Below are positions 15,430 through 56,543 of a stretch of 64,000 bases of DNA, piece after piece. The stretch lies in contig NZ_JRHO01000014.1 of the NCBI RefSeq assembly GCF_000765475.1, positions 637,687-701,686 of the forward strand. The letters are read 5' to 3'. The notes under the pieces are model-generated. The model saw only the letters and a program-made list of their open reading frames with translations. It was not told where the DNA came from and made no database searches. Each line of letters begins with the position of its first letter. Within the stretch, counting starts at the first letter, position 1. The translations under genes and the position numbers were made by a program. The stretch comes from Methanococcoides methylutens. GTDB taxonomy: Archaea; Halobacteriota; Methanosarcinia; Methanosarcinales; Methanosarcinaceae.

Positions 15430-15501
15430 GCGGCTGTGGTTTAGAGGCTATGACCTGAGCTTCCCAAGCTTGGAACCCGGGTTCGATTCCCGGCAGTCGC
15501 A
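15430..15501 (+). tRNA. tRNA-Gly (anticodon CCC)
   Basis: A 72-nt cloverleaf. The acceptor GCGGCTG pairs with CAGTCGC with one G-T pair; the T arm is CCGGG-TTCGATT-CCCGG; the anticodon loop TTCCCAA gives CCC, reading GGG. The discriminator is A and CCA is not encoded. A TATA-like TATAATC lies upstream around 15392. The AT-rich CBASS island starts within about 40 nt of its 3' end, so it may have been an integration target. Confidence 0.93.
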
Positions 15502-54273: not shown

Positions 54274-55539
54274 TTATTCCGGCATCTTGGCACGTTCAAA
54301 GTTCTCTTTTTCTGCAAGCACTTTAGTGGCATCGATACCGACCTTGGTGGTCGTACCGTCAGGTGCACCTCTCGGATCAAGTGAACTGCCGCGAACGTTC
54401 GGGATGATCATCATATCAGTATCCCCTTTCACGCGTGTCGCAATGGCAAATTCCACATCCTGCATATCGAAGATGTCAATGTCCTCGTCCACAATTACAA
54501 CATGCTTGAGACTTGTGTGCGCTGCAAATGCCGCCATAATAGCATTTTTGGCATCACCTTCGGTCTGCTTCTCGATCTGCACAACAGCATGCAGGTAACA
54601 GCAGCCACCTTCGGTGAGCACGACGTTCTTTACAGTAGTTACTTCTGAAACAGCATTGTAGATCTTTGGCTCGTAAGGCACGCCCATCATGAGAAGGTGT
54701 TCCGGGCCTGCAGGCAGGATGCCGTGATAGATAGGGTCACGCCTGTGCATGATCTTTGTTATGTGGATCACCGGTTCCTTGCGCACAAGGTCGTATGTTC
54801 CTGTAATGTCCACGAAAGGACCTTCATCCACCCTTTCCACAGGGTCGACGTAGCCTTCGAGTATTATCTCTGCATGTGGCACTTTAACGCCGTTCTCACA
54901 TTCGAACAGTTCCACAGGAGCACCGCGAAGAGCTGCTGCATATTCGAATTCCTTTCCGGCAGGCACACGGGTGGTGGATGCAAAAGTGATGACAGGATCT
55001 GCACCAAGTACTATTGCCACTGGCAGCGGTTCGTTGTTCTCGCATGCCTTCTTATGCAGGACAAAGCTATGACGCGGTGGAACAAGGCGTGCAGCCAGTT
55101 TGTCCTTTCCGACGACCATAAGCCTGTGGATAGATGCATTCATCATCCCGTCGTACTCAGAAACAACAACACCTGCAGTGATGTAAGGTCCGCCGTCCTT
55201 TTCAAAATGTGTCATAAGAGGCAGTTTTGTAAGGTCAACCTCATCAGTTATGACCTCCTGCGTCGGGGATGAGTCGACGATCTTAACTTCCCCATCCGGA
55301 CGAACTTCAGAAAGCCTCTGGATGATACCATCCTTTGGCACACCGAACATGTCAGCAAGCTCGTCCCTTGAACCAAGAAGGTTCATGATCGATTTCTGCC
55401 CGTCAATGTCATGAAAAAGTATCGGCCCATTGCTCTTCTTTGCAAGTCTTGGTGCTTCGAAGACCTTCGAAACAGGATCTGTGACCTCAACAAGCCTGTC
55501 GCTTGCCCTTAGATGATCGATAAAATCTCTGAAACTCAT
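54274..55539 (-). CDS. anhydromevalonate phosphate decarboxylase (UbiD family)
   Basis: About 421 residues from ATG 55539, at the conserved MSFRDFIDHL; an ATG at 55578 adds 13 residues and would lie at or before the predicted transcript start. UbiD fold with prenyl-FMN: GPYITAGVVVSEY, a Glu-Arg-Glu region in the core (VERVDEGPFVDITGTYD) and C-terminal IIPNVRGSSLDPRGAP. It decarboxylates anhydromevalonate phosphate to isopentenyl phosphate. The linked dehydratase genes make this assignment much firmer than homology to UbiD alone. The cofactor-making UbiX is not in the window. Confidence 0.9.
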   Translation of the reverse strand: MSFRDFIDHLRASDRLVEVTDPVSKVFEAPRLAKKSNGPILFHDIDGQKSIMNLLGSRDELADMFGVPKDGIIQRLSEVRPDGEVKIVDSSPTQEVITDEVDLTKLPLMTHFEKDGGPYITAGVVVSEYDGMMNASIHRLMVVGKDKLAARLVPPRHSFVLHKKACENNEPLPVAIVLGADPVITFASTTRVPAGKEFEYAAALRGAPVELFECENGVKVPHAEIILEGYVDPVERVDEGPFVDITGTYDLVRKEPVIHITKIMHRRDPIYHGILPAGPEHLLMMGVPYEPKIYNAVSEVTTVKNVVLTEGGCCYLHAVVQIEKQTEGDAKNAIMAAFAAHTSLKHVVIVDEDIDIFDMQDVEFAIATRVKGDTDMMIIPNVRGSSLDPRGAPDGTTTKVGIDATKVLAEKENFERAKMPE

Positions 55540-55599
55540 TGTATCGATATAGTAAAAAGGGTCTCTCGATAAATACATTGTCGTCTTTTTACGCCCAGG

Positions 55600-55610
55600 T
55601 CTTTATAAGT
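55600..55610 (-). promoter_or_regulatory. shared TATA element between the mevalonate operon and the first hairpin element
   Basis: CTTATAAAG read on the minus strand (TTTATAAG at 55602-55609 on plus) is nearly palindromic. On the minus strand it would start transcription near 55575, giving a leader of about 35 nt before ATG 55539. On the plus strand it would start just before the hairpin at 55646. Confidence 0.45.
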
Positions 55611-55645
55611 GCATAAAAAAGGAAATTGCCTTCAAAAAAGGAGTT

Positions 55646-55705
55646 GCTCCCATCGGTGATGAAAATGGTTTTGGAAATCAGAACTAAAGGAAGTCTGATG
55701 GGAGC
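55646..55705 (+). ncRNA. structured element, copy 1 (possible small RNA)
   Basis: A 60-nt unit closed by GCTCCCATC / GATGGGAGC (9 bp), with an inner hairpin TGGTTT / AAATCA. GTGATGA follows the left arm and CTGA overlaps the right arm, which recalls the C and D boxes of archaeal sRNAs, but clear C' and D' boxes are missing. A related unit lies 269 nt downstream. A TATA box lies 40 nt upstream. The strand is not certain because the stem is near-symmetric. Confidence 0.5.
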
Positions 55706-55914
55706 AGTTGGAAGACAACACATAGAACTACACATAGAAATGCATTATAGTATAAATAGTAATGTTTTTGACTAACTTATGTTAGTTAAATAGATAATTT
55801 ATTATTCGTAGAGTTATAGACCTTCGAACAGAATCACCATTTTCAACCTATTAATTAGTGACAGATATTTTTTGATTTGAAAAATATGTAAAACTTATAA
55901 TTTGAAAAGGAAGT

Positions 55915-55969
55915 GCTCCCATCGATGAGGAATTGATCAGAAATCAATGAAACTAAGTCTGATGGGAGC
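55915..55969 (+). ncRNA. structured element, copy 2 (possible small RNA)
   Basis: A 55-nt unit with the same outer 9-bp stem GCTCCCATC / GATGGGAGC and an inner hairpin ATTGAT / ATCAAT whose sequence differs from copy 1 but still pairs. After the right arm both copies continue with GGTTG or AGTTG, then AACATAGA and a TATAAATA- or CATAAATA-like block followed by TAATG. The conservation of pairing with changed bases points to RNA structure. Confidence 0.5.
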
Positions 55970-56078
55970 GGTTGTAACGAAGAACATAGAGAGATTCATA
56001 GCATAAATACTAATGGGTTTAAATAAGAGCTATTATTTAAAGGGATAAACCAATCTGCAAAGAATAAAGGACATTCCA

Positions 56079-56543
56079 TCAATCCAGGTCAAGAGATTCA
56101 TTGATCCTATGTAACGCTTCTGCCACCAGCATTTGCACATCGGTCATATGCTCGTCGGACACTTCCCCATTCTCGGTCTCGATCAGTTTTTGGAGATCTG
56201 CCACGATCTTATGGATGGTCAGGATCATTTCCTCTTTGCTGATAAGTCCGGCATAATAGGCATAGAAGAAAGTTGTTCCACTACGCTGGACCTTATGCTT
56301 GAAAGCAGCATGGGCATTAGAGACTTCCTGTCTAGTGTACGGTTCATCTACGAACGGAACCAGATCCGGCAGGTTCTGACCGATCCAGGTCATTTCGGAA
56401 CGGTTTGAGAGATTCTTGAAGTCTGCGCATAAACGGGCAATAATCCATTCACGTGCAGTAAGATGAGTTGTCTGTTTCAGGAAGCGTGTCACGTCCGAGT
56501 AACTCTTGTTTTCCAGTTTTGTGAATTTCTCATATTTGTTCAT
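56079..56543 (-). CDS. DUF5806 family protein
   Basis: A 154-residue soluble, mainly helical protein. The pattern KYEKFTKLENKSYSDVTRFLK, then TAREWIIARLCADF (about 30-43), ENLP-like NLPDLVPFVDEPYT and FYAYYAGLISKEEM matches DUF5806, a family shared by methanosarcinas and haloarchaea. Function is unknown. A single gene; the twin hairpin units lie directly downstream of its stop. Confidence 0.75.
   Translation of the reverse strand: MNKYEKFTKLENKSYSDVTRFLKQTTHLTAREWIIARLCADFKNLSNRSEMTWIGQNLPDLVPFVDEPYTRQEVSNAHAAFKHKVQRSGTTFFYAYYAGLISKEEMILTIHKIVADLQKLIETENGEVSDEHMTDVQMLVAEALHRINESLDLD

Follow-up and report, generated by a model that had tools for sequence, protein, structure and literature searches.

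Two tandem predicted small RNA genes upstream of ubiD in Methanococcoides methylutens and their relatives in a second genus

Locus and features

The intergenic region between a DUF5806 gene and a UbiD-family gene (ubiD) of Methanococcoides methylutens was analyzed in a window of 64,000 nucleotides, which is the whole stretch of DNA considered here. Two hairpins lie in this region, at 55646-55705 (copy 1) and 55915-55969 (copy 2), and the features assigned to them are collected in Table 1. On the plus strand GCTCCCATC is found at 55646-55654 and 55915-55923, with a spacing of 269 nt, and GATGGGAGC at 55697-55705 and 55961-55969, exactly where an earlier note on this DNA had placed two units with a common 9-bp stem. 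The same note had claimed that the 470 nt hold no gene, and indeed no ORF of at least 60 aa is present in 55579-56078.

The UbiD-family gene is followed by the AcnX and AcnX_swivel genes, a trio reminiscent of the modified mevalonate pathway of archaea (cf. PMC10040528). The mechanical ORF start of ubiD is at 55578, and a TATA-like box lies 28 nt upstream of 55539; because of this box the gene probably starts at 55539 and is nearly leaderless, the ORF start at 55578 being too early.

Table 1. Coordinates of the predicted small RNA genes, their parts and the neighboring genes in the window
Feature	Position	Strand	Remarks
UbiD-family gene	54274..55539	minus	context; TATA-like box of its own at 55575-55568
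Predicted small RNA gene, copy 1	55615..55726	minus	conserved in 6 congeners; R2 and R3 matches
Outer stem P1 3′ arm, copy 1, GAAGGCAA	55626..55633	minus	by eye from folds
CTCCTTTTTT stretch 3′ of P2, copy 1	55634..55643	minus	anti-Shine-Dalgarno-like
Main stem P2 3′ arm, copy 1, GATGGGAGC on minus	55646..55654	minus	
Apical loop, copy 1	55655..55696	minus	67% pyrimidine
Main stem P2 5′ arm, copy 1, GCTCCCATC on minus	55697..55705	minus	
Outer stem P1 5′ arm, copy 1, TTGTCTTC	55711..55718	minus	by eye from folds
TATA-like box of copy 1, TATTTATA on minus	55751..55758	minus	
Predicted small RNA gene, copy 2	55905..55977	minus	R2 and R3 matches
Main stem P2 3′ arm, copy 2	55915..55923	minus	
Main stem P2 5′ arm, copy 2	55961..55969	minus	
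TATA-like box of copy 2, TATTTATG on minus	56002..56009	minus	
DUF5806 gene	56079..56543	minus	context

Distribution of the family

The covariance-model search suggested in the earlier note, together with an inspection of the regions upstream of ubiD, gave homologues in two genera with the stem pairing kept, in total 25 copies (23 distinct) in 19 genomes. They occupy a single locus, between the DUF5806 gene and ubiD, in all 19 carriers. The element is present in 11 of 11 genomes of the genus of the window (g1, which we take to be Methanococcoides), six of them having two copies and five having one copy of type d, and in all eight genomes of g8, a genus matching Methanohalophilus, where it is single-copy (six genomes have type b and the other two type c).

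Three models were used. The first (R1) was built from 12 copies of one genus on the plus strand and matched both copies at the same position in six congeneric genomes; its matches outside were weak, but through one of them, located immediately 5′ of ubiD in G071, the second genus was found. Of the 109 family genomes with ubiD, 90 supplied the region upstream of this gene (one region of 81 bases, one of 653), and for inspection all those of g1, g8 and g13 were used along with at most three per other genus. The second model (R2) was built on the ubiD strand from 17 of the 18 copies of types a and b, and the omitted one (copy 2 of G001) was then recovered by it. R2 also recovered the untrained types c and d, at E 2.1e-5 in G009, 8.0e-5 in G071, 9.4e-4 in G006 and about 0.003 in G002, G003 and G008, while the copy of G068 was missed in the larger R2 search and found in the smaller one (19.4 bits).

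The third model (R3) was built from all 25 copies and run against 111 family and 185 order genomes, searches in which the filters may lose weak matches; it gave nothing convincing outside the two genera. The absence elsewhere rests on the model searches because the upstream regions covered only part of the genomes. At E 0.001 or better R3 matched 20 of the 185 order genomes, which are the 19 known carriers and one weak match in G028. One weak match (G110, E 0.003) was obtained in the 30 genomes of g7, presumably Methanosarcina, among the 111 family genomes; in the genomes of g4, presumably Methanolobus, none reached E 0.01. Of the listed weak matches elsewhere, twelve of R2 and five of R3 were inspected; apart from one in G020 (below) they resemble chance or coding sequence.

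Two further sites were recorded. In G020 (L280), at another locus, R2 weakly matched (E 0.001) a fair hairpin GTGCTCCCGTC/GACGGGAGCGC with a pyrimidine tail behind it, which is possibly a distant relative. In G022 (g13, L184) a polypyrimidine tract CCCCTTTCCTCCCCCCTCCCTTCC lies between the DUF5806-like gene and ubiD, at the site expected for the small RNA gene, and no stem was seen in it.

Structure and covariation

On the plus strand copy 1 folds with -28.6 kcal/mol (z -5.3) and copy 2 with -26.4 kcal/mol (z -5.2), and on the minus strand the z values are -4.2 and -4.4, respectively; for each copy and strand none of 200 shuffles folded equally well. The arms of the 9-bp main stem (P2) are identical between the two copies of the window. 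The earlier note had named this the outer stem and had seen compensatory change in an inner hairpin, whose letters (TGGTTT/AAATCA and ATTGAT/ATCAAT) are present on the plus strand of this genome. No common inner hairpin appears in the folds of 12 copies from six congeners, so it was rejected as a conserved element, and the compensatory change belongs instead to P2, which varies only among more distant relatives.

The covariation of P2 was read from a model-fitted alignment of the 25 copies (23 distinct), which leans to structure. In it 96.6% of 204 cells are paired and changes on both sides occur in seven of the nine pairs (20 cells), counts which are not independent because the copies are related; none of 500 shuffles matched any of these values, and pairing drops to 38-53% when the partner is shifted by 1-3 columns. 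The types of arms can also be read directly, as GCTCCCATC/GATGGGAGC, GCTCCTGTC/GATGGGAGC and AGTCCCTCA/TGAGGGACT.

An outer stem (P1) appears in the folds of longer stretches. Defined by eye, it is found in 18 of the 25 copies and is missing in seven, and it is undefined in copy 2 of the window. Copy 1 has the arms TTGTCTTC/GAAGGCAA, type b has ATTGCC/GGCAAT, type d has GAAGATGTTGTC/GACAACATTTTC and G071 has AAAGG/CCTTT. Over the 18 copies P1 has 136 Watson-Crick pairs, 12 wobble pairs and a single mismatch. With this covariation and no common ORF the element is non-coding with a conserved secondary structure, and judged on the sequences it is very probably a structured small RNA gene. To our knowledge few archaeal sRNA families have a covariation-supported structure across genera.

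Promoter, strand and the possibility of a cis-acting element

A TATA-like box in minus orientation stands upstream of 23 of the 25 copies, where 2.6 would be expected from shuffled stretches, and the reversed box is found at 0 of 25. This box is a predicted independent intergenic promoter, as is expected of an archaeal trans-acting sRNA. In one species (G007, L015) a 12-nt unit ACATAGAACTAC is tandemly expanded by about 60 nt between the stem of copy 1 and its TATA box.

The hairpins could also be a leader, an attenuator or a terminator which acts in cis on the transcription of ubiD or ends the DUF5806 transcript. Their position is always just upstream of ubiD, and TTTT follows the hairpin within 45 nt in 23 of the 25 copies, both of which speak for such a role. 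The TTTT count also speaks for a separate small RNA gene, against which stands that T-runs lie within 20 nt in just 14 of the 25. However, a TATA-like box belonging to ubiD itself lies 22-37 nt ahead of the start of this gene in 19 of 19 genomes, which makes a cis role for this gene less likely, and the conserved loop together with the upstream TATA-like box would be unexpected for a plain terminator. A cis-acting element is hence considered rather improbable as compared with a separate small RNA gene.

Such a gene is likely to lie on the minus strand, as far as promoter and stem sequence can indicate. P2 has 21 pairs that are wobble when read on the ubiD (minus) strand and 4 that would be wobble only on the other, and in P1 the numbers are 12 and 0, so that both stems together favor minus by 33 to 4. 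The earlier note had assumed the plus strand, and an RNA from that strand, a purine-rich and GGA-rich hairpin that might bind some protein or the 16S tail, would agree with the energy of the whole element: 17 of the 23 distinct copies and 19 of 25 longer stretches have the lower value on plus. The promoter and stem evidence was weighted above the energy because G-U pairing favors a purine-rich strand, although the relatedness of the copies makes these counts, too, non-independent; with the wobble pairs and the orientation of the boxes in the same stretch both against it, a functional plus-strand RNA is unlikely. The motif TATTTAT is sparse in the intergenic regions of the window and its orientation is uninformative on strand.

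Rejected identities and novelty

A small protein gene was rejected on either strand and is very unlikely, since the open frames of 48-49 aa that cross copy 1 on both strands of this genome are disrupted in G005 and G007 by indels of one base within copy 1 and no frame is common to the types. Still less credible is a C/D-box guide RNA or other L7Ae-bound kink-turn RNA, in which box C (RUGAUGA) and box D (CUGA) lie beside the closing stem (PMC5539422). The C/D-like letters pointed out in the earlier note do exist in copy 1 on plus, with GTGATGA adjoining the stem and CTGA ahead of the 3′ arm, but they are not family-wide: on plus, 5 of 25 copies have both boxes in place, and on minus 0 of 25 do, counts by which this reading was rejected, and 0 of 6 copy-2 elements have both; the CTGA overlaps the stem arm, and Rfam snoRNA matches are sub-threshold only.

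At the gathering threshold of Rfam 15 only a tRNA (15430-15501) was matched in the window, the hairpins having no match, and five homologous loci gave no family at threshold; the sub-threshold matches look like chance. A literature search, restricted to one library, listed no description of this RNA. Within that coverage, and without an Rfam match, the family appears to be new, and the proposal of a new small RNA family in the earlier note is borne out by the number of copies and the strong covariation of the stem. Since the family is defined, sits at one locus and occurs in genera that include cultured species, its expression, strand and target pairing can be tested directly.

Proposed function and relation to known small RNAs

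The unpaired loop of P2 is about 30-42 nt long, conserved and 63-78% pyrimidine. The 16S rRNA of this genome terminates in GGATCACCTCCT, and the longest run like the 16S tail has a mean of 6.9 nt in the loops (4.8 nt when shuffled) and of 6.4 nt in the tails (3.8 nt when shuffled), with a maximum of 9 nt (ACCTCCTTT, types b and c). For the six copy-1 loops alone the anti-Shine-Dalgarno match is not exceptional for their composition (P of about 0.2). The earlier note had remarked on anti-Shine-Dalgarno mimicry in the arms; such stretches do exist, but it is the loop and the 3′ tail, and not the arms, that hold the conserved unpaired ones.

We propose that two small non-coding RNA genes stand in tandem on the minus strand, that a separate TATA box precedes each of them and that each gives an RNA of about 75-110 nt, whose transcription and ends are predicted: the 5′ end of copy 1 near 55726 and its 3′ end near the T-run 55620-55615 are deduced from the TATA box and this T-run, and copy 2 would begin near 55977 with an uncertain 3′ end. 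The RNA would be composed of P2 with its pyrimidine-rich loop followed by a CUCCUUU-like unpaired stretch, with P1 added in copy 1 and most relatives. Given the likeness of these unpaired pyrimidine-rich segments to the anti-Shine-Dalgarno tail of 16S rRNA, we infer a trans-acting sRNA which masks ribosome-binding sites: the C/U-rich loop and the 3′ segment may pair in trans with purine-rich Shine-Dalgarno regions of mRNAs, by which translation would be repressed or otherwise tuned. Our confidence in the proposal as a whole, from tandem genes to action in trans, is evenly divided, and the Shine-Dalgarno pairing mechanism on its own stands at roughly an even chance.

The family would be filed with the intergenic sRNAs of methanogens. 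In the related methanogen M. mazei, sRNA154 is likewise a structured intergenic sRNA, at a different locus, and PMC5867862 gives an anti-RBS sequence in its loop 2. The covering of Shine-Dalgarno sites reviewed there for sRNA154 loop 2 and sRNA41 agrees with the mode of action proposed here. Masking of ribosome-binding sites is reported for sRNA41 and sRNA162 of M. mazei (PMC5867862 and PMC3510493); sRNA162 has 191 nt and three stem-loops and pairs via a linker, whereas the RNA proposed here is one tiered hairpin. Homology to sRNA154, sRNA41 or sRNA162 was not detectable, which is judged indirectly because R3 gave only the one weak match in the 30 g7 genomes. In Methanolobus psychrophilus, of the same archaeal family, the sRNAs are also intergenic, some of them several per region, and include nine conserved cold-induced ones (PMC5378194); they are set apart from the present family by the R3 search in g4 genomes and not by their own sequences. 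If the Shine-Dalgarno reading is true, a further methanogen lineage would join the RBS-masking sRNAs of M. mazei.

A quite unlikely variant is that the RNA is a mimic of the 3′ end of 16S rRNA, in which two ACCUCCUU-like stretches, one in the loop and one in the 3′ segment, would compete with the ribosome for the Shine-Dalgarno sites of many mRNAs. It would then be a dose-dependent global tuner of translation initiation, and the duplication would raise the dose in one subclade.

Regarding the pairing in trans proposed above, a target trial on 58 genes of the window, with guessed starts, was done with four segments, and shuffled RNAs were as good in 9, 10, 1 and 31 of 60. In three genomes (G004, G001 and G000; L164, L165 and L166, near 1501) a separate hairpin with arms ACCACCGTGAAAC/GTTTCACGGTGG was noticed whose loop holds TTGGAAATCAG, the complement of CTGATTTCCAA in the loop of the small RNA; it could be a partner or a chance match.
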